A program made the position numbers and the translations under genes. A stretch of 24,902 bases of DNA from a virus. The notes under the pieces are model-generated. The model saw nothing but the letters and a program-made list of their open reading frames with translations, ran no database searches and was not told where the DNA came from. Below, one piece after another: positions 1,553 to 22,894 of this stretch. The stretch is from IMG/VR virus record IMGVR_UViG_3300030451_001014, positions 1-24,902 of that record; one strand, 5' to 3'. Positions within the stretch are counted from its first letter, which is position 1; each line of letters begins with the position of its first letter.

Positions 1553-1587
1553 TTGCATATATATAATCAAAGATTATTATTTAAGTA
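1553..1587 (+). promoter_or_regulatory. Promoter of cassette A with inverted repeat in the spacer
   Basis: -35 TTGCAT (1553-1558), 16-base spacer, -10 TATTAT (1575-1580), then 7 bases to a conserved TTGAATGAAACA (1588-1599) where transcription would start. The spacer holds a perfect inverted repeat ATAATC-AAA-GATTAT (1563-1577) that overlaps the -10, as expected for a repressor operator. Cassette B has the same repeat in its promoter. The TTG at the predicted +1 opens a four-codon frame, TTG AAT GAA ACA TAA. Confidence 0.6.
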
Positions 1588-1626
1588 TTGAATGAAACAT
1601 AAAAAAAAAGAAGGGAGTTGATTTCA

Positions 1627-1986
1627 ATGAAAAAAGTAGAACTAAAAAAAGTAAAAAATACTTTAGAAGAAATACAAAAATATGACGGTAAAAATTATGA
1701 TGTTGAATACATTAATGAAGATTTACCAACTGAAGATAGAGAAATTAGAATTAGTTTTGTTGAGAAAATTGGCAATACTGATATTAACAAAGTCGTTTTT
1801 ATGTCTTTATACACAGATAGCAAAGTTGTTAAGCACGAAGAAGGGTTTAATACTTGGAAGAAGTTTTATACATTAAGTACAAGAATTGTTATCGGTGGAG
1901 AAGTTGTTGCTACTAGATTATTTGAACTTAATACTTTAGATAATCTTAAAGTAAAAATTAACTGTGCAAAAAAAGGTATATTCTAA
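1627..1986 (+). CDS. Unknown 119-aa protein of cassette A
   Basis: An acidic/basic mixed soluble protein that I do not recognise. It has a lysine-rich N-terminus (MKKVELKKVKNTLEEIQKY) and several alternating hydrophobic stretches suggesting beta strands (VVFMSLYTDSKVV, TRIVIGGEVVATRLFEL). ATG at 1627 is chosen because AAGGGAG (1611-1617) sits 9 bases upstream. The TTG at 1618 is directly adjacent to that Shine-Dalgarno and cannot use it. The gene is alone on the plus strand between two leftward operons, with its own promoter and terminator, so it behaves like a moron: an independently expressed accessory gene. Very AT-rich codon use. Confidence 0.75.
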   Translation: MKKVELKKVKNTLEEIQKYDGKNYDVEYINEDLPTEDREIRISFVEKIGNTDINKVVFMSLYTDSKVVKHEEGFNTWKKFYTLSTRIVIGGEVVATRLFELNTLDNLKVKINCAKKGIF

Positions 1987-4722: not shown

Positions 4723-4904
4723 TATTTTCTAAACCTTATTGTAATTAACCATATTGCCAATGTAATTATTGTTGCATAAAATGTTATCGTTCTCGAAGCA
4801 CCACTCAAAGTCAATATGGCAATAATCATTCCCACTAATGTCCAAGCGAGATTAAGAGTTTCTTTAACTGCTTCAACTAACCAAGACCACAATTTATTTA
4901 TCAA
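4722..4904 (-). CDS. Holin-like protein with two membrane segments
   Basis: 60 aa with two hydrophobic segments (about 18-33, LNLAWTLVGMIIAILT, and 40-56, TFYATIITLAIWLITI), a short linker and a basic C-terminus (IRFRK). That layout is typical of small class II holins and of the second membrane protein often found beside actinophage holins. The start is a TTG at 4904 that overlaps the TGA of the large secreted protein. AAGGAG lies 6 bases upstream, inside the end of that gene. It may be a holin, antiholin or accessory membrane protein alongside the r1t-like protein at 6710-6922. Confidence 0.65.
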   Translation of the reverse strand: MINKLWSWLVEAVKETLNLAWTLVGMIIAILTLSGASRTITFYATIITLAIWLITIRFRK

Positions 4905-6706
4905 TTAAATCTCCTTACTGCTAATGATAAAATCCTTACCATAACTGTTGGCACTATTACTTCTTGTGCCTTCTCTTTTTGCTGAGAACTCATATCATCA
5001 GTAATGTTTGCTAAATTTATTGCGTCTAAATCAACATCAATAATAACACTAAAGTCTCCCTGAGCTAAAGACTCGAATGTTATTTCTGTTGTAACATCTG
5101 CTAAGTTGTAATCTTCTACATCAGCGTTGGCAACAACTCTCTCTACATATTCTTCTACTGCTTTAGCAACTGTCTTATCTGTCTTAACTGCTTCAGCAAT
5201 AACTTGTACATCATCTGTTTCTGTAAAGCCAAGCACTTCAGCTACGACTTCTTGTTGTTCTTCTGTAAGCTCGTCAGCTTTTTCTATAGATTGTTCTACT
5301 ACTTCTGCTACAACTTCAAGTACATCTTCGCTAACTTCTGTAAGATTTTCCAATCCTGCGTCATTAACTTCTTCAATGATTTCCACAACTTCTTCTGTTT
5401 CAAGTTCTTCAACATTAGTCTCTTGTATAGCTTCAATCTTTTCTTCAACTTCTTTTACTTCTTCCTGTATTTCTTCTTCAGTTAATTCTACTTCTTCGAT
5501 TACTTCTTCTTCAATAACAAGTTCATCTTCTTCTTGAATTTCTGCTTCTGATTCGGTGTCATCTGTAAGTATTTCTTCGTCCAACTCATCTTCTATAACT
5601 TCTTCTTCTACATCTTCTTCAATAATAATTATTATTTCTTCAGGAATCTCAATAACAATTTCTTCTTCATCAAACTTAAATTCTTCTTCAAGTTCTTTAA
5701 CATCAATTTTAATTTCTTCTTCGACAACTTCATCTTCAATATCTTTAATTTCATCATCAGACTCCACTTCAAGTACCACAATATCATCATCAGGAAGCTC
5801 TGTTTTGGTATCTGTGATTTCTTCATCTTCAATTTCTATAATAACTTCTTCTTTTTCTTCTTCTTGTTTTAAGAAATCATTATAAGCAGGACAATCTCCA
5901 CGCTCTAATGCAATATCTGTAACATAGCAACCCCACTCATCTTCATTAGCTTGTCTCTCTATATCTCTATCAATAGTTCCGTCATTAAGTTCTTCTTGGG
6001 TGTATTCAACTTCTTTTCCATTAATCTCGACAATTACAGGTGCAAGAGTGGTCGTAGTTGTAGGTGGTGGTGGTGGAAGCGTAGTTGTAGTAGTAGTTGT
6101 TGTGGTTGTAGTTGTTGTAGTTGATGTTGTAGTTGTAGGTGGAACAGTAGTTGTTGTAGTTGATGATGTTGTTGTAGTAGTAACAGGAATGTCTTGATAC
6201 TGCCAATAAAGTGTATCTAAAACAGATAAGTCAGATAAAGTTACTTCAAACTTAGTAATATACTTATCTGTGTTAGCTTCATCATTGTTGTAATCAGTAA
6301 ATGATTTATAAAAGCTATCGTACATAGTAGAAAAGTCTGCGTTACTCTGACCTGATTTTTGTATAGTTTCATCTGTATTATCTGAATAATAATACTTAAC
6401 ATCATAAGAATTATTTACTGCACCTACAATAAACCCTACTTCATAGACATCTTCTGAAAACCCAAAGACATAAGTACCACCTGATATTGCTAATGAACAA
6501 CCTGTAGTCCCATATCTATCTTGTTCATTACAATAAATAAATACATCAGTATTACCACCACTAATAGTTAAACCTGATTCGTATGTACTATCTTCAAAGC
6601 CTTCATTTACTGTAACTTCGTAAGGTACATCTTCAGCCAATGCAGGTATTGGAACTGCAATTAGGCACACAGAAGCAATACAAAGTAACTTCTTTAGGTT
6701 GAACAC
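4901..6706 (-). CDS. Large secreted protein with poly-Thr linker and Glu-rich region
   Basis: 601 aa. Residues 1-25 form a classical signal peptide (KK, then LLCIASVCLIAVPIPALA). Residues 26-172 are a folded-looking domain with two cysteines (59, 70) and many Gly/Tyr/Ser. Residues 176-222 are nearly pure Thr with Pro. Residues 223-280 are a small domain with cysteines at 260 and 272. Residues 281-445 are extremely rich in Glu/Asp with Ile/Val. Residues 450-525 are predicted helix, and the C-terminus ends in MVRILSLAVRRFN. Exported proteins of Acidimicrobiia often carry such Thr/Pro linkers, so the gene looks host-derived. It sits among holins and the endolysin, 3 bases after the r1t-like holin gene. 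A role in cell-wall interaction, superinfection exclusion or lysis is possible; none is shown. It starts with GTG. Confidence 0.8.
   Translation of the reverse strand: MFNLKKLLCIASVCLIAVPIPALAEDVPYEVTVNEGFEDSTYESGLTISGGNTDVFIYCNEQDRYGTTGCSLAISGGTYVFGFSEDVYEVGFIVGAVNNSYDVKYYYSDNTDETIQKSGQSNADFSTMYDSFYKSFTDYNNDEANTDKYITKFEVTLSDLSVLDTLYWQYQDIPVTTTTTSSTTTTTVPPTTTTSTTTTTTTTTTTTTTLPPPPPTTTTTLAPVIVEINGKEVEYTQEELNDGTIDRDIERQANEDEWGCYVTDIALERGDCPAYNDFLKQEEEKEEVIIEIEDEEITDTKTELPDDDIVVLEVESDDEIKDIEDEVVEEEIKIDVKELEEEFKFDEEEIVIEIPEEIIIIIEEDVEEEVIEDELDEEILTDDTESEAEIQEEDELVIEEEVIEEVELTEEEIQEEVKEVEEKIEAIQETNVEELETEEVVEIIEEVNDAGLENLTEVSEDVLEVVAEVVEQSIEKADELTEEQQEVVAEVLGFTETDDVQVIAEAVKTDKTVAKAVEEYVERVVANADVEDYNLADVTTEITFESLAQGDFSVIIDVDLDAINLANITDDMSSQQKEKAQEVIVPTVMVRILSLAVRRFN
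6041..6181 (-). repeat. Low-complexity Thr-codon tract
   Basis: About 140 bases built from ACA/ACT/ACC triplets encode the Thr/Pro linker of the secreted protein. The tract is prone to slippage, so length may vary between related phages. Confidence 0.85.
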
Positions 6707-16026: not shown

Positions 16027-16052
16027 AAAAAAGCCACCTGAGTAGGTGGCTT
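16027..16052 (-). terminator. Terminator of cassette B
   Basis: An 8-bp perfect stem AAGCCACC / GGTGGCTT (16031-16038 with 16045-16052), loop of 6, followed on the minus strand by T's. The stem is identical to that of cassette C at 20166-20187; only the loop differs. It lies inside the structural gene run, upstream of the gp10-like gene. Confidence 0.9.
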
Positions 16053-16070: not shown

Positions 16071-16373
16071 TTAATATACCCAAGTTGGTGGATTTTTATA
16101 GCTCTCTGCACAACTTTTATCACAATGCCATTGAGTCCAACCGTCTTTTCTTGTCATTGTCATCAATCTTTTATCATTAAGTTGTGCCATAGCTTCGTTA
16201 TAACAAATACTTAGGTCATTAATTTTCCAACCTGAAAATTTGTTAGCTCTCTCGAAACAGTTACAAGCACCTAAGAAATTAATGTCGATTTGCCCACAAT
16301 CCTCGTAATGCTTCTCTCCTGTTTCCCAATGCTTTACAACTTTAACTTTTTTAAGGTTTTTTTCCTGTGTCAT
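16071..16373 (-). CDS. Unknown Cys-containing protein of cassette B
   Basis: 100 aa from ATG at 16373, chosen because AAGGAG lies 5 bases upstream. An upstream in-frame ATG at 16406 (MNETNKLEGVK added) coincides with the predicted transcription start and could act as a leaderless start, giving 111 aa. The protein is basic at the N-terminus (KNLKKVKVVKHWETGEKHYE) and has six cysteines (CGQ, CNC, ICY, HCDKSC), so metal binding or disulfides are possible. I do not recognise it. It has its own promoter and terminator in the middle of the head-tail genes, typical of a moron. Confidence 0.75.
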   Translation of the reverse strand: MTQEKNLKKVKVVKHWETGEKHYEDCGQIDINFLGACNCFERANKFSGWKINDLSICYNEAMAQLNDKRLMTMTRKDGWTQWHCDKSCAESYKNPPTWVY

Positions 16374-16406
16374 TTTGACTCCTTCTAATTTGTTTGTTTC
16401 ATTCAT

Positions 16407-16441
16407 AAGAATATATTATATAATCTTTGATTATAATGCAA
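16407..16441 (-). promoter_or_regulatory. Promoter of cassette B with inverted repeat
   Basis: On the minus strand: -35 TTGCAT (16441-16436), 15-base spacer, consensus -10 TATAAT (16420-16415), then 8 bases to ATGAATGAAACAAA at 16406. The spacer is filled by the inverted repeat TATAATC-AAA-GATTATA (16435-16419). The distance from TTGCAT to the TGAATGAAA motif is the same as in cassette A. CCTATAAACATTG lies further upstream at 16485-16473. Confidence 0.7.
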
Positions 16442-16508
16442 ATATTTAATAAGAAATATACTAAAAAAAAGTCAATGTTTATAGGGTTTTAGAAAAAATT
16501 TAAAAAAA

Positions 16509-17147
16509 TTATAGAATTGTGCCACTCAAAGTGGTCTTTTTGTGTGCTTTAAGTAATGTTTGGACATCAGGGTCAATCTTGGAGAATAGCTCACTAACTC
16601 CTGTATTGACATCTCCATAAGTATTGAATGGAGTATCTTTTCTTTTGAAATATCTAAGGGCTTGTATCAATGTTGCAGTTTTAATATCTTCAGGAACTAT
16701 TGAGTAACCCCACTTGGCAGTTACTTGAACATTGTTTTTTATTGTTGGGTCGAATCTCTCTGAGCTTCTAGTGTCAAGAATTGTAATCTTGTTGTAAGGC
16801 TCATAGTAAGTTGTGCCACCGTCTATTTTAATTATTCTAGGATTGCTTGGCTCAACTATAAAATCTGTGTTGATTGTTAAAGTAGTTTCATAAGTACCGT
16901 CATCATTGTCATCTAACTTTACTATGAGACCTGTGGTTGTACTTATGTCAGGCACATCAAGATAAAGACTTGACTTTGGTGTAAATACTTTTGCGTTTGC
17001 AGAACTATCTTGATTAAATCTTCTACCTGTTACTGCGTCTATTAATCTACAAGCTGAGTTAATAGCAGTATTAATATTGAAATCTTGAGCAGTACCTGAT
17101 AGACCAATGTATGCCTTAAAATCGTCCTTATCAACATACTGTGCCAT
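16509..17147 (-). CDS. Head-tail connector, gp6-like
   Basis: 212 aa. It has the pattern of HK97 gp6/YqbG-type connectors: an N-terminal helix pair (KDDFKAYIGLSGTAQDFNIN, then AINSACRLIDAVTGRRF), a beta-rich middle, then NVQVTAKWGYSIVPEDIKTA followed by a helix with RYFKRKDTPF. Connectors of this type form the ring below the portal. It lies downstream of the capsid gene as expected. The Shine-Dalgarno is weak. Confidence 0.85.
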   Translation of the reverse strand: MAQYVDKDDFKAYIGLSGTAQDFNINTAINSACRLIDAVTGRRFNQDSSANAKVFTPKSSLYLDVPDISTTTGLIVKLDDNDDGTYETTLTINTDFIVEPSNPRIIKIDGGTTYYEPYNKITILDTRSSERFDPTIKNNVQVTAKWGYSIVPEDIKTATLIQALRYFKRKDTPFNTYGDVNTGVSELFSKIDPDVQTLLKAHKKTTLSGTIL

Positions 17148-17411: not shown

Positions 17412-18677
17412 TTAAAAGTTAGTAATAGTACAGAAAGCAGTTGGTCGATAGACAGGGAATCCTAATCTAACGGTTGCTTTCATAACCATAATATCTTTTA
17501 CGAAGTTTTCATCGTGGGAATCAGACATAGCTACTTCCATACCTTGTCTTGCAACAATATGACAAGCCTGTCCACCACCGAAAACACCTACGATACAAGT
17601 TCCTGCAGGTCTAGTTGTATCTAACACGACAGGGAGACCCCATAGTGTTTGTCCAACTGCACCACCGAACTGTCCTGCACCAACAAAGAGTGGGTTTAAG
17701 CTACCACTTGTAGTAACTGCATTTACTTCAGTTACAACTTGGTACCAATCTGAAGGGTGCATAATTATAGCGTCAGGACTTAAGAAGCTATCTTTTTGTA
17801 TTTCTGTGATTGCTTCATAAATTTGACCTACTCTCTTAAGGTTTCCTGAGAATGATGAGAAATCAAATGTATTGATTCCTGAAACATTCAAAAGACCTGT
17901 TAAGTTAGGTGCAACACCTGAGCCTGCAAGTAGTTGGTCTCCAACTGCAAGATTAACCATTGTTCGTAATCTTGAGTCAAGATAACCACTAACTGCTGAA
18001 ACATCTGCTAACAATTCTTCTGTTACAGGTAAGAATGAGCCGATTTTACGGATATTCTCTGTTTTTTCTGTGAATGCAAGTGCGTTCTCGCCCAATGCTG
18101 AGCCTTCTGCAGTTGCACTAGAGTTGTTAGTGAATGTGGATTCTTCGAGATACTTGTATTGGTAAGTATCTGTTGTAATTGTGTCGATTAAGTCAATAAC
18201 AGTTTGTGGGTTTCTTAATGCAGTAGGAACGATTAAATCGCTTCTTGTTACTGCAGGTGGATAACCTGTTTCTGTTAATGTTGTTTTTAATTCGACTTGT
18301 GGATTCCACTTAAGTTCTGAATTGATGTTCTTTTGCCCATTGTCCATAAAACTTTTGTAAGCACTAGACTCAATGAGTTGGTCGCCAAGAGTTTTTCTCT
18401 CAACTTCTTCCTTCTCATTGTGAATTGGCATAGATTTTACTTCTTTACCTTTTTCTAATGCTTCTTCAAGTCTTGCTTCTTGAGTTTCGAGAGCATTTAA
18501 TTCATTAACTTTTTCATTAAGTTTCTCAATTTCAACATTTCTATCTTCGATAGCTTGTTTCTTTTCAACAGAGATTTCAGAGCCACCTTCATAGGTGTCC
18601 TTCATTTCTTTAACTGCGTCAAATTGAGTTTGTCTTAATGCGTGGAGTTCCTGTGTGAGTTCTGTTAATTTACTCAA
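17412..18677 (-). CDS. Major capsid protein, HK97 fold
   Basis: 421 aa from TTG at 18677. Residues about 1-95 are a charged coiled coil (the delta scaffold of HK97), followed by the fold proper: GYPPAVTRSDLIVPTALRNP, FLPVTEELLADVSAVSGYLD, GSGVAPNLTGLLNVSGI, ITEIQKDSFLSPDAIIMHP, and the C-terminal strand VRLGFPVYRPTAFCTITNF. The prohead protease directly upstream would remove the scaffold. TTG is preferred because AAGGAG lies 6 bases before it, and that Shine-Dalgarno is encoded within the first residues from the ATG at 18692. The start overlaps the protease end. Capsomers of this protein build the icosahedral head. Confidence 0.95.
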   Translation of the reverse strand: MSKLTELTQELHALRQTQFDAVKEMKDTYEGGSEISVEKKQAIEDRNVEIEKLNEKVNELNALETQEARLEEALEKGKEVKSMPIHNEKEEVERKTLGDQLIESSAYKSFMDNGQKNINSELKWNPQVELKTTLTETGYPPAVTRSDLIVPTALRNPQTVIDLIDTITTDTYQYKYLEESTFTNNSSATAEGSALGENALAFTEKTENIRKIGSFLPVTEELLADVSAVSGYLDSRLRTMVNLAVGDQLLAGSGVAPNLTGLLNVSGINTFDFSSFSGNLKRVGQIYEAITEIQKDSFLSPDAIIMHPSDWYQVVTEVNAVTTSGSLNPLFVGAGQFGGAVGQTLWGLPVVLDTTRPAGTCIVGVFGGGQACHIVARQGMEVAMSDSHDENFVKDIMVMKATVRLGFPVYRPTAFCTITNF

Positions 18678-19479
18678 CTTTATCTCCTTCATTAACTACG
18701 CCTTGACTTCTTGCCAAGACTTCTTGTGTGTTTAGCCAAAGTGCGTCTATATCATCTTTAGGTTGCTCTGCTTCTTCTTCTCCTAGTCCAAGTATGTTGT
18801 CTAAATCGTTATAGACTTCTTGGATTCGGTCTTGAATCTGCATAAGAGATTCTTGAGCAGACTTTGACAATGTTTTGCCTTTTTCTAAGCGTAAAGAAGT
18901 AAGTTCTTTTGCTCTGTCAATGAAGTTGTTAATTGTGATAAGCACATTATCAGCTTCATCTGTGAATCTAAGACCTGATTGCACATCTTTTAATTCTTCA
19001 TCTTTTTGTTCTTTTACTGCAACTGTGTAAGTTGATTGGTTTGCACCAACAAGAACAGGCGAGACTTCAAACACAGTAGCAGATTTTATATACCTTACTT
19101 CCTGTGATTGTCCGTCTTTTTGGAATTGTCCTTGTTCTGCGTCATCAACTTGGAATCCAAAAGACCATTGTTGCAAGTCTCCCATAGCTTTTACAATTTC
19201 ATAGGCTTCTTTGCCACTCTCAGACGACATAATGAACTCGCCTTTAAATGTTGCCTTGTCATCATCTTGAACTATGCGTCCTTTACCAATAGGATTCTCC
19301 CATTTGTGAGACCATACCATTGGTACTTCGCCTTCTAAACCTTTAAATGATTTTAGTGAGTTTGGTAAAACTACATCTCCGTCAGAATCTACATTATTAA
19401 ATACAGAGAAAACTGCTTCTACTTTGCCTTCCTTGTCGGTGTCCAATGCAAAGTCTATTGATTTAAACTCTTTGTCCAT
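18670..19479 (-). CDS. Prohead protease, HK97 type (peptidase S78-like)
   Basis: 269 aa. N-terminal domain FALDTDKEGKVEAVFSVFNN and DSDGDVVLPNSL, then VPMVWSHKW with the catalytic His at 58, QQWSFGFQV with the nucleophile Ser at 106, and FEVSPVLVGAN, the family pattern of the HK97 prohead protease. The C-terminal part (about 170-269) is helical and charged, likely the removable scaffold interaction part. It cuts the delta domain of the capsid protein and then itself. ATG at 19479 overlaps the upstream stop (TAATG). Its end overlaps the capsid start, the usual gene order. Confidence 0.95.
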   Translation of the reverse strand: MDKEFKSIDFALDTDKEGKVEAVFSVFNNVDSDGDVVLPNSLKSFKGLEGEVPMVWSHKWENPIGKGRIVQDDDKATFKGEFIMSSESGKEAYEIVKAMGDLQQWSFGFQVDDAEQGQFQKDGQSQEVRYIKSATVFEVSPVLVGANQSTYTVAVKEQKDEELKDVQSGLRFTDEADNVLITINNFIDRAKELTSLRLEKGKTLSKSAQESLMQIQDRIQEVYNDLDNILGLGEEEAEQPKDDIDALWLNTQEVLARSQGVVNEGDKVE

Positions 19480-19739
19480 TATTCTTCTTCCTTTTCTACC
19501 CACGCTTCGTTTTCTTCTGTGTTAGGGTCGTCTGCAATAAAATGTCCTTTGTCATTCCTTGCCCTTACTTTACTAGCTTCTTGTAATTTTTTTTCTTTTT
19601 CTGCTTTTGTAATTTTAACAAGCGTACCTTGTTCAATTAACCATTTAATACTTTTTTGTGGAATACCTTTGCCGTCAATAAACTCGCCTTCAGCAAAGTA
19701 TTTATCTTTGACAGTTATTCCGTTCATCACTTCATACAT
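19479..19739 (-). CDS. Small protein upstream of the protease
   Basis: 86 aa. Residues 1-50 look like a small fold (KDKYFAEGEFIDGKGIPQKS, then IKWLIEQGTLVKI). The C-terminus has KVRARNDKGHFIADDPNTEE and NEAWVEKEEE, a D-P-N-T-x-E-N-E-A-W ending seen on several marine-phage structural proteins. Role unknown, likely head or neck related. Both junctions are TAATG overlaps, so it is tightly coupled with both neighbours. Confidence 0.75.
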   Translation of the reverse strand: MYEVMNGITVKDKYFAEGEFIDGKGIPQKSIKWLIEQGTLVKITKAEKEKKLQEASKVRARNDKGHFIADDPNTEENEAWVEKEEE

Positions 19740-20146
19740 TATGTAATTATCTCCACGCTAAATTCTACGCCTAAGTAATCAATACTATTCACAGTATAAA
19801 CACCATAATTAGACGCTTCAACAACTCTAGCAGAACTTACCACTCCACCTAAAGTTGTATCTCCTTCAATAGCTGATTTTACACTTGTACTTCCACTTCC
19901 GTCTAAATAAGAATCTAAAGAATCCTGCGAGAGTTCTGCGTCAACTCTTGAAACATACATATAGATTGGAATGTTATAAGTATCTGAGCCACGAGCCATT
20001 GTTGAATCATATTCCAATGAACTCATTACACCAACAACTGCCGTAGGTGGCTCAATAGAATCAGGTACAAAAGAAAATATACTTAATCCTGAGATTGTTG
20101 CTAATCGTGTTTTTAATCCTTCTCTTATGCTAGATAAACTTGCCAT
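19739..20146 (-). CDS. Neck / tail-terminator-like protein
   Basis: 135 aa. The pattern REGLKTRLATISGLSIFSFV, PDSIEPPTAVVG, then DTYNIPIYMYVSRVDAELSQ, DSLDSYLDGSGSTSVKSAIE and a closing beta strand matches actinophage neck proteins usually called tail terminators. These form a ring that stops tail-tube growth and joins it to the head. Here it lies upstream of the protease and capsid rather than between connector and tail tube, which is not the usual order. The ATG has no clear Shine-Dalgarno and follows the terminator of cassette C. Confidence 0.7.
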   Translation of the reverse strand: MASLSSIREGLKTRLATISGLSIFSFVPDSIEPPTAVVGVMSSLEYDSTMARGSDTYNIPIYMYVSRVDAELSQDSLDSYLDGSGSTSVKSAIEGDTTLGGVVSSARVVEASNYGVYTVNSIDYLGVEFSVEIIT

Positions 20147-20161
20147 AGGTATTACTATAAC

Positions 20162-20187
20162 AAAAAAGCCACCAATGTAGGTGGCTT
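20162..20187 (-). terminator. Terminator of cassette C
   Basis: Stem AAGCCACC / GGTGGCTT (20166-20173 with 20180-20187), loop AATGTA, then a T run on the minus strand. Stem identical to cassette B. It lies between the cassette gene and the neck gene at 20146. Confidence 0.9.
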
Positions 20188-20206: not shown

Positions 20207-20509
20207 TTATATTTTTTCTAAACAATCTGTGCAAACTAAGTCAAGAACTTTTACTTCTTCCATACCTAATTTACCCATACTTTTTGTTGCATTGTTAATA
20301 ACAATGTCGTAGTAGTCAAGAGAGTTTGTCATACCTACTCTAGCACCACAATTCATTGAGCCAATCCAACTTTTTTGATTCATAGTCTTTTGAATATGAA
20401 AATCTGTAGTTATTTGTACAAATCCGTGTTCGCTTAAATTATGACCTATAAGTGTAAGTCCTAGTTCTCTTGCTTCTTTTACTTTGTTTAGTTTGTTTGT
20501 TTCATTCAT
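20207..20509 (-). CDS. Unknown protein of cassette C
   Basis: 100 aa starting at ATG 20509, which is also the predicted transcription start, so it would be a leaderless message. No internal start with a Shine-Dalgarno is seen. It opens MNETNKLNKVKEARELGLTL and contains three cysteines, two as VCTDC near the end, plus a beta-looking middle (EHGFVQITTDFHIQ). The first 14 bases are identical to those of cassette B although the proteins differ beyond MNETNKL. Not recognised. Confidence 0.7.
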   Translation of the reverse strand: MNETNKLNKVKEARELGLTLIGHNLSEHGFVQITTDFHIQKTMNQKSWIGSMNCGARVGMTNSLDYYDIVINNATKSMGKLGMEEVKVLDLVCTDCLEKI

Positions 20510-20545
20510 ACCTATTAGAGTAATCGAAGATTACAAAAGTTACAA
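20510..20545 (-). promoter_or_regulatory. Promoter of cassette C with inverted repeat
   Basis: On the minus strand: -35 TTGTAA (20545-20540), 17-base spacer, -10 TACTCT (20522-20517), 7 bases to ATG at 20509. The inverted repeat GTAATC-TTC-GATTAC (20534-20520) covers the spacer and the -10, as for an operator. Confidence 0.55.
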
Positions 20546-20585
20546 GTTTTATAGTAAAAATCACTATAAATCAGTTCTGTAAAAG

Positions 20586-20609
20586 CCTATAATCATTGAT
20601 TATTTTAGG
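20586..20609. promoter_or_regulatory. Second inverted repeat and CCTATAA element near cassette C
   Basis: ATAATC-ATT-GATTAT (20589-20603) is flanked by CCTA (20586-20589) and TAGG (20606-20609), so the whole block is a near palindrome. It is another member of the AATC-N3-GATT repeat family and includes the CCTATAATCATTG element seen upstream of cassettes A and B. A T-rich stretch (20616-20654) without genes follows. Confidence 0.5.
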
Positions 20610-20660
20610 TATGTAAAAATTATTTTATTTTTTTTTCTTTTTTTTGGTGTTTTTGACTAT

Positions 20661-20731
20661 AAAAAGCAGATAGCTGACCCTTCGGAGTTGATTGCTGAAT
20701 GAATGAAACAAAGGGTCAGCTTCTTATCTGC
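20661..20731 (-). terminator. Strong terminator hairpin with a 28-base loop; possible regulatory RNA
   Basis: GCAGATA (20666-20672) pairs with TATCTGC (20725-20731) and GCTGACCCTT (20673-20682) with AAGGGTCAGC (20711-20720), separated by a 4-base bulge, 17 pairs in all. On the minus strand five T's follow, so it terminates the early operon. The loop (20683-20710) reads on the minus strand UGUUUCAUUCAU..., complementary to the conserved start of the cassette messages, and also AAUCAACUCC, complementary to the Shine-Dalgarno area of cassette A. The large loop is unusual for a pure terminator. Confidence 0.75.
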
Positions 20732-20842
20732 GTGTTCAATGATACAGGGAATTGGATTATCGAACTATCTAATCTTAATACAATAAATTAAGTGTGCAAT
20801 ATATACAACTCTTTACATATTGCAATTCGTGTTTTTCACAAA
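20732..20842. other. Gene-free tail of the early operon
   Basis: No convincing gene on the minus strand. It contains an 8-bp inverted repeat TGCAATAT / ATATTGCA (20795-20802 and 20817-20824) and a smaller one, CTTAAT / ATTAAG, near 20773-20791. The whole gap 20510-20842 holds only promoter C, the repeat block, a T-rich stretch, the hairpin and these repeats. Confidence 0.5.
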
Positions 20843-21166
20843 TCATTCTTCTCCAAACAGTTCATCAAAGCATTTAGGGTGTGAGCCTGAGATAATTTGT
20901 TCCCAACCTGACTTGTCTAGGTAAGGGAAGTAATCTTTGACATCTTTTCTTGGAATATCCCATTGGTACTCGTGCCAATCTTTTCTGATAACTTCGATAG
21001 TACCTTCTTGGCTACAGATAATACACTTATCTGTTGGAACAGTAACAATATCATCATCAACATTCCTATTCATAAATTGAGTTGATGTGTATAAGAGTTT
21101 CTGTTCCTGCAGGGTTAAATGACCTGCACAGTTTTTTTCTTCAGGGCAGTTGCATTTAGTTATCAT
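20843..21166 (-). CDS. Cys-rich early protein
   Basis: 107 aa. Two cysteine clusters: KCNCPEEKNC near the N-terminus and KCIICSQEG at about 47-55, with a further Cys near the end (HPKCFDEL), so zinc binding is likely. The middle has a Trp/Tyr-rich section (RKDWHEYQWDIPRKDVKDYF). I do not recognise the family. Last gene of the leftward early operon; ATG overlaps the stop of the 41-aa gene (ATGA). Confidence 0.75.
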   Translation of the reverse strand: MITKCNCPEEKNCAGHLTLQEQKLLYTSTQFMNRNVDDDIVTVPTDKCIICSQEGTIEVIRKDWHEYQWDIPRKDVKDYFPYLDKSGWEQIISGSHPKCFDELFGEE

Positions 21167-22563: not shown

Positions 22564-22576
22564 AAATCTTCGATTT
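22564..22576. promoter_or_regulatory. Inverted repeat between the divergent promoters
   Basis: AAATC-TTC-GATTT, member of the AATC-N3-GATT family. It overlaps the -35 of the rightward promoter (22575-22580) and lies 14 bases upstream of the leftward -35. One bound protein could control both directions. Confidence 0.55.
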
Positions 22577-22608
22577 GACAAGTAGGAGAGTTTCTGCTAT
22601 CGTAGATT
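22575..22608 (+). promoter_or_regulatory. Rightward promoter of cassette D
   Basis: TTGACA (22575-22580), 17 bases, TATCGT (22598-22603), then 5 bases to ATGAATGAAA at 22609, the conserved start motif of the cassettes. Confidence 0.7.
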
Positions 22609-22636
22609 ATGAATGAAAAATATAAAAGGAGTGAAA

Positions 22637-22894
22637 TTGCAAAAATTTACTTATCAAGTCTTAAAATCTTTTAAACAAGATTACACAGACTTACAAAACT
22701 TCCAAGACGCAGAGCTAGTTTTGGAAGATACTATCGAGCTTGATTGCTCAGGCTATCACAATCCACTAGAAGTGTTTTGGGCTTGGAGAATCAGAGAAGC
22801 TCGTATCTATAACAAAAAATTGTCAGACCAAGAGAAAAAAGTTTTCTCTTATATTGTCAGGCAAAAAGATTCTTTGAAGGGAGAAGAAGAATGA
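22637..22894 (+). CDS. First gene of cassette D, unknown
   Basis: 85 aa from TTG at 22637, chosen because AAAAGGAG (22624-22631) lies 5 bases upstream. ATG at 22613 in the same frame adds MKNIKGVK but has no Shine-Dalgarno. The sequence has aromatic and acidic helices (LQKFTYQVLKSFKQDYTDLQ; HNPLEVFWAWRIREARIYNK). No family recognised. Another ATG at 22609 opens a different 21-codon frame. The end overlaps the next gene by 4 bases (ATGA). Confidence 0.7.
   Translation: MQKFTYQVLKSFKQDYTDLQNFQDAELVLEDTIELDCSGYHNPLEVFWAWRIREARIYNKKLSDQEKKVFSYIVRQKDSLKGEEE

Follow-up and report, generated by a model that had tools for sequence, protein, structure and literature searches.

A conserved two-hairpin RNA predicted in marine phages, with a loop complementary to the 5′ tag of their gene cassettes

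The large-loop hairpin and the tag of the cassettes

Does a viral hairpin whose large loop is complementary to the starts of several gene cassettes belong to an RNA acting on these cassettes, or is it an operon end, a cis-acting or DNA element, or the remnant of a further cassette? This question is raised by one virus record of 24,902 bases (G000), the whole stretch of DNA that was analyzed, hereafter called the window. It carries a leftward block of structural genes, including those of the major capsid protein (17412–18692) and of the tail terminator (19739–20146), and four small cassettes (A to D), each with its own promoter-like sequences. Re-reading of the window found every feature of the initial annotation at its reported position. 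The hairpin, here called hairpin 2 (20666–20731, minus strand), consists of a 6-bp outer helix, GCAGAT (20731–20726) paired with ATCTGC (20671–20666), a 4-nt bulge (AAGA) and an 11-bp inner helix, AGCTGACCCTT/AAGGGTCAGCT; the stem previously described as 17 bp does contain 17 paired bases but is split into 6 and 11 bp by the bulge instead of being unbroken. The loop has the 28 nt initially counted, and folding closes a U·G and a G-C pair, leaving 24 nt unpaired and extending the inner helix to 13 bp. The minimum free energy (MFE) of a 109-nt RNA from the window is −34.3 (z = −6.1), z values range from −5.7 to −7.2 overall, and the loop of hairpin 2 is unpaired in both the MFE and the centroid structures.

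The anti-tag UUUGUUUCAUUCAU of this loop (20699–20712, minus strand), complementary to AUGAAUGAAACAAA, matches perfectly 14 nt of cassettes B (16406–16393) and C (20509–20496), 11 nt of cassette A (1589–1599) and 10 nt of cassette D (22609–22618), as first reported. The second half of the loop, AAUCAACUCC (20693–20684, minus strand), is complementary to GGAGUUGAUU of cassette A (1614–1623), also in agreement with the initial annotation. The window contains four exact copies of the 10-mer TGAATGAAAC (0.09 expected), three of ATGAATGAAACAAA (0.001 expected) and two of GGAGTTGATT (0.06 expected); with one mismatch allowed, nine copies are found compared to 3.6 expected. None of 1000 dinucleotide-shuffled loops reached the observed complementarity to the leaders, and 0 or 1 of 1000 reached the observed duplex energy. 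The complementarity between the loop and the cassette starts is thus real and far from chance.

In all four cassettes, the matched tag lies at the predicted +1. Cassette A (1553–1986, plus strand) has a TTGCAT (1553), an operator-like TAATCAAAGATTA (1564–1576) and an ORF starting at 1627; its tag, UUGAAUGAAACA, forms a 4-codon upstream frame (1588–1602) followed by a Shine-Dalgarno (SD) sequence. Cassette B (16071–16442, minus strand) has TTTGCA/TATAAT elements with an operator-like palindrome (16433–16421), and its tag, AUGAAUGAAACAAAC, is a start encoding MNETN, in frame with an inner SD-led ATG. The same tag, AUGAAUGAAACAAAC, again encoding MNETN, opens the ORF (20509–20207) of cassette C (20207–20545, minus strand), which has an operator-like palindrome (20533–20521) and a terminator (20187–20166) and is absent from relatives with an empty site. 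Cassette D (22575–22894, plus strand) has TTGACA (22575) and TATCGT spaced by 17, the tag AUGAAUGAAA (22609–22618) and an ORF at 22613–22894. Within its own leader, the tag is unpaired in cassettes B, C and D (0.92–0.98); the value for A is 0.51.

The target of the loop can be written (A/U)UGAAUGAAA(C) and is found at the predicted +1 of cassettes behind several promoter types. Cassette promoters combine a TTGCAT-like element, an operator-like TAATCNNNGATTA and a −10 element, with the tag (A/T)TGAATGAAAC about 7 nt after the −10; other layouts, such as TAATCTTTGATTATGAATGAAATAA and that of cassette D, likewise have the tag at their predicted +1. It precedes 61 protein clusters, or about 40 unrelated orphan families once chance hits in unrelated contigs are removed, and ten representative cassette proteins gave no match to a Pfam domain. 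All tag-bearing contigs that were checked come from the same phage group. The tag is often the start codon itself (ATGAATGAAACA, encoding MNET) and in some cases forms a short frame of its own (TTGAATGAAACATAA) upstream of GGGAGTTGATTTCAATG; constant nucleotides in such different coding roles point to a function of the tag as nucleic acid. Many tagged cassette mRNAs look leaderless, AUGAAUGAAAC being read as MNET. Among cassettes collected by promoter and operator alone, the tag is present in 49 of 75 in clade A, 26 of 37 in clade B and 0 of 5 in clades C and D, tag counts being inflated by some contigs that were retrieved by the tag pattern, and at least eight of the untagged clade A matches fall inside known genes. 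Some operator cassettes carry near-miss tags, and nine further cassettes of this collection in clade A and two in clade B contain GGAGTTGAT.

Several other features of the cassettes and of the window were recorded. The terminators of cassettes C (20166–20187) and B (16031–16052) are near-identical (AAGCCACC...GGTGGCTT) and that of A (1997–2028) is related to them, which suggests that a cassette moves as one unit of terminator, gene and promoter-tag; in the case of cassette C, there are also precise empty sites. Upstream of cassettes, AAARCCTATAANCATTGR (1504–1521, 16489–16472 and 20582–20599) forms a terminator-like short stem (AAAGCC...GGGCTTT in relatives) with a T-tract, has a nearly fixed inner sequence, TATAAACATT, and is frequent in many other viral contigs. 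The candidate AAARCCTATAAACATTGR upstream of cassettes was rejected as a part of the promoter: it reads as a terminator-like stem with a T-tract and is found in many unrelated contigs. Elsewhere in the window, a 601-aa reading frame (4901–6706) encodes a threonine run and long acidic low-complexity stretches.

A conserved two-hairpin element between two genes

About 60 viral contigs from a group of marine phages carry hairpin 2 flanked by the same pair of genes. Downstream is the tail terminator gene (19739–20146, minus strand; PHROG 17840, E = 1.9e-36), a fixed neighbor, and upstream is usually a gene of unknown function (20843–21166, minus strand) for which neither Pfam nor PHROG gave a match. 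The tail terminator gene directly follows the hairpin in many phages (empty site), and in others a cassette is inserted between them. This gene itself also seems to be served by a leaderless extended −10 promoter (TGTTATAGTAATACC-ATGG; 20130–20175 and relatives), a candidate that is kept with or without an upstream cassette. A search of IMG/VR for GGAGTTGATT...TGAATGAAAC retrieved 46 stretches, most of them carrying the same hairpin; a second one, with the stem sequence fixed and the loop free, retrieved 77, and a third one 61. Although the stem-only search did not demand the loop, the loop seed is present in all its true members.

In an alignment of 16 distinct sequences of hairpin 2, the stem has 19 pairs and all 304 of 304 pair cells are intact; four pairs have changed on both sides, and slid pairings reach at most 43% paired. 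The anti-tag is invariant except for its last U, which is A in one subgroup. An invariant U·G pair and one change from A-U to G-U fit an RNA made from the minus strand. Folding energy does not discriminate between strands. These data bear on two other explanations of the complementarity. The hairpin could be a decayed fifth cassette, proposed in the initial annotation because GGAG and ATGAATGAAAC stand in sense order on the plus strand and open a 30-codon frame (20699–20791). This frame does exist in the window; however, across relatives it ends after 14, 18, 26 or 30 codons, and without a conserved frame the decayed-cassette reading does not hold. The compensatory changes of the stem and the near-invariance of the anti-tag point to selection acting on an RNA, and the plus strand has no cassette promoter upstream, so that this explanation is hardly credible. 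Alternatively, loop and tag could be homology or recognition sites for cassette exchange at the DNA level, their antisense orientation being incidental. Clean empty and filled sites beside the hairpin and the recombination of promoter-tag modules among cassettes are in line with such a DNA element, but cassettes A, B and D are located at sites devoid of the hairpin, and the minus-strand G·U pairs suit an RNA while the other strand would have A-C mismatches; we consider this explanation very unlikely.

The element is not limited to hairpin 2. A small hairpin 1 (20734–20765, minus strand), with the stem GUUCGAU...AUUGAAC and a loop containing UUCCCUGU, lies upstream. Its stem varies by group but its pairing is kept (GUUCGAU/AUUGAAC, GUUGAAU/AUUCAAC, CUGAAU/AUUCAG and UAGCUAGG/CCUAGUUA). 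In clade B (L198/G007 and other loci), the hairpin 1 loop UUUCAUUCCCUGUA includes UUUCAUUC, a second copy of the anti-tag core. In the window, hairpin 1 is preceded by a putative −10, TAAGAT (20772–20777, minus strand), accompanied by TTGCAC (20799–20794) at a spacing of 16. Relatives have TAAGAT, TAACAT, TAATAT, TAAACT, TATTAT or TACTAT at an equal distance from hairpin 1, giving a TAnnnT motif in which T1, A2 and T6 are invariant and the inner bases variable, with a TGN often just before; this motif lies about 7 nt ahead of hairpin 1 in every group. Since the second small hairpin and TAnnnT precede hairpin 2, the element has the appearance of a free RNA about 100 nt long. In the window, the predicted small RNA (20661–20765, minus strand) would be about 105 nt long, from the first base of hairpin 1, about 7 nt past the −10-like element, to a U5 tract, and this two-hairpin arrangement is kept in 24 distinct sequences. 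The predicted RNA is small and strongly conserved. Its 5′ end is probably located about 35 nt further upstream than hairpin 2, at hairpin 1 (about 20765), and it is probably transcribed from its own −10-type promoter just before hairpin 1.

This organization changes the interpretation of hairpin 2 as the terminator and 3′ end of an early operon. The UUUUU expected of a terminator does follow the stem in the window, but many relatives have no U-tract: their hairpin is followed by CUAAAAG, CAAAAAG or CCAAAAG and then by the next gene. The bases right after ATCTGC vary (TTTTTATAG, TAAAAGTTTG, TATTAATAG, ACAATTAAA or CAAAAAGTTTG), so that a U-tract, and with it intrinsic termination, is restricted to some members. 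The RNA is not simply an operon 3′ end either, as the −10-like element and the second hairpin precede hairpin 2 in all clade A and B sequences; furthermore, the "early" label is not established, the gene downstream of the hairpin being that of the tail terminator. On the other side, the 3′ end is unexplained in members without a U-tract, which counts against the small RNA reading.

Searches for the element beyond this phage group were negative. In a set of 100 loci selected without the hairpin, the covariance model R1 detected no copies. The hairpins of clades C and D escape this model and were located instead by their position and by a search for the loop. Neither the tail terminator gene context nor the tag nor the RNA is shared by the distant relatives of clade E (L210–L225), in which this gene lies in another context. 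The window has no Rfam match at the gathering threshold, only spurious families being found at 20500–20850 (E up to 5), and no tRNA or tmRNA was found. A search of bacterial genomes for a homologous RNA found nothing, and relatives of the tail terminator protein did not indicate a host.

Loops and tags in related clades

If the loop acts on the tag, both should change together, and the initial annotation proposed their covariation across related phages as a check. This is observed between clades A/B and clade D. The longest complementarity between the loop and the leaders of its own clade averages 12.6 nt in clade A, 12.2 in B and 11.0 in D, a match length reached by 0 of 1000 shuffled loops for A and B and by 0–1 of 1000 for D, compared to 5.8–6.2 for the cross pairs of A with D and D with A. 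The 10-mer TGAATGAAAC is absent from eight sister contigs (126.8 kb) and from G029, G033 and G009. Clade D has the leader GAAAGGAAAC(G) behind the same operator, with UGAAAGGAAAC as tag (G029, G009, G030, G034 and L271), and a conserved intergenic large-loop hairpin, GGGGGG-UAGUUUCCUUUCAGAAACGCACCUAAACAG-CCCCCC, which runs along the gene direction, carries AGUUUCCUUUCA and exposes in its loop 11 nt that are perfectly complementary to UGAAAGGAAAC. This hairpin also exists in a version with other stem bases and the same loop (z of −3.7 and −3.8). The clade D hairpin was found by looking for the complement of the tag, sits elsewhere in the genome than that of the window and might exert a cis effect on the ribosome-binding site that follows.

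Clade C gives a neutral to negative result for the coupling of loop and tag. Its hairpin is at the exact position of that of the window, before the tail terminator gene, with empty and filled forms; the tag is AUGAAAGAAAC, and the loop UCUUUCUUUAAUUCCCCUUUGUUU pairs over 9 nt with AAACAAAGG and over 7 nt with the tag. However, about 200 of 1000 shuffled loops match the energy of this loop against its own leaders and about 20 of 1000 its longest match, a marginal advantage, and this pyrimidine-rich loop pairs no better with its own leaders than with those of clade A. Ranking start regions by RNAduplex energy placed tagged cassettes near the top in the window and in G002, at mixed ranks in G001 and low in G033; ranking of whole start regions is too noisy for a clean separation of targets. 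Another long hairpin was noticed in L360 and L361 (G033), on the minus strand near 16683 and directly before a replication-initiation-like gene: its 35-nt loop, UUCAUUUCCCACCUUUUGUUU, looks antisense to an SD and start codon.

The clade comparison also weakens part of the initial evidence. The match of AAUCAACUCC to the SD area exists, but the clade B loop has lost AAUCAACUCC except AACUCCG, and the GGAGTTGAT ribosome-binding sites persist in this clade; a specific anti-SD role is therefore doubtful, and the matching anti-SD change predicted in the clade B loop (GGAGTTTAGA) was not found. Untagged operator cassettes of clade A (L026, L096, L275, L349, L351 and L355) mostly use GGAGTTGAT, which matches this other half of the loop.

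The element could also be a cis-acting structured 5′ leader or boundary that insulates or pauses transcription, with the loop match as a relic of a cassette start. Its fixed position before the tail terminator gene, the U-tract that makes it a terminator in some members (the window and L384) and the insertion of cassettes right after the hairpin would all suit such a role. The absence of a conserved U-tract, the retention of the loop while the stem diverges and the matching loop of clade D at another locus argue against it and make it an unlikely explanation.

Proposed mode of action and known phage RNAs

Our preferred reading, which we hold with moderate confidence, is that of a trans-acting antisense RNA repressing the cassettes. 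A structured phage RNA of about 100 nt would be transcribed leftward from its own −10-type promoter just before hairpin 1, and the 24–28-nt loop of hairpin 2 would display an antisense copy of the tag (A/U)UGAAUGAAA(C). This loop would pair in trans, over 10–14 bp, with the tag as the extreme 5′ end of cassette mRNAs. In the many mRNAs that look leaderless, the pairing would cover the start codon; in mRNAs with an upstream frame, it would cover the loading site, ribosome binding being blocked in both cases. As many mRNAs appear to begin with AUG, repression of leaderless initiation is the simplest outcome. The same complementarity would be expected if the RNA instead activated or protected its targets, by shielding leaderless 5′ ends or delivering them to a protein, and the sign of a regulation is invisible in sequence; this is nevertheless unlikely, since a duplex over a 5′-terminal AUG should impede the loading of 70S or 30S.

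If the RNA does repress the cassettes, any cassette arriving with the tag would come under its control, and one RNA may switch off all tagged cassettes together. A broader proposal appears possible rather than probable: a phage-wide "barcode" regulon, in which acquired cassettes of any function are placed under one RNA through a leaderless-mRNA tag and tag/loop pairs orthogonal to each other have evolved in sister groups (AUGAAUGAAAC with UGUUUCAUUCAU; UGAAAGGAAAC with GUUUCCUUUCA). Such a regulon would be a simple viral route to common control of any incoming gene and would involve an RNA acting on the 5′-terminal start codon of leaderless mRNAs; the tag-loop pairs are directly testable by swapping.

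Loop-seed small RNAs are known from bacteria that lack Hfq or have little of it, such as the actinobacterial small RNAs with C-rich loops, stable hairpins exposing a seed against translation-initiation regions. The seed in the window lacks such a C-rich composition, and its match is to a +1 tag rather than to a generic SD. Like P22 sar and lambda OOP, the window RNA would be a small phage RNA blocking phage genes by base pairing, but these are described as single-gene regulators (of ant and cII, respectively; PMC12197685), whereas the locus of the window RNA is distant from cassettes A, B and D, and its match is short and shared. PreS and VpdS are, as proposed here, trans-encoded phage small RNAs with many targets in principle (PMC12197685); however, they depend on Hfq and act on host and phage RNAs, while the visible targets of the window RNA are the phage's own cassettes.

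The closest known system in working principle is the C4 antisense RNA of P1 and P7, whose loops pair with the ribosome-binding site and with sequences preceding it (PMC5320573, PMC12197685) and which has three stems, loops a′ and b′ and cleavage by RNase P at GGW (PMC5320573). Like C4, the window RNA would be a phage-encoded antisense RNA with target complementarity in loops, one part of it directed against a ribosome-binding site, and it probably acts on the phage's own messages. Nevertheless, the Rfam library, which includes C4-type RNAs, gave no match to the window RNA, and the architecture of three stems with loops a′ and b′ is absent from it. Furthermore, C4 has one main target (ant), whereas the predicted window RNA has two hairpins, one large loop and dozens of putative targets sharing a 5′-terminal tag. 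The antisense RNAs known from phages usually guard a single gene or a few; in the present case, a single loop matches the 5′ tag of about 40 unrelated cassette families, and the sister group (clade D) has a different tag and a different matching loop.
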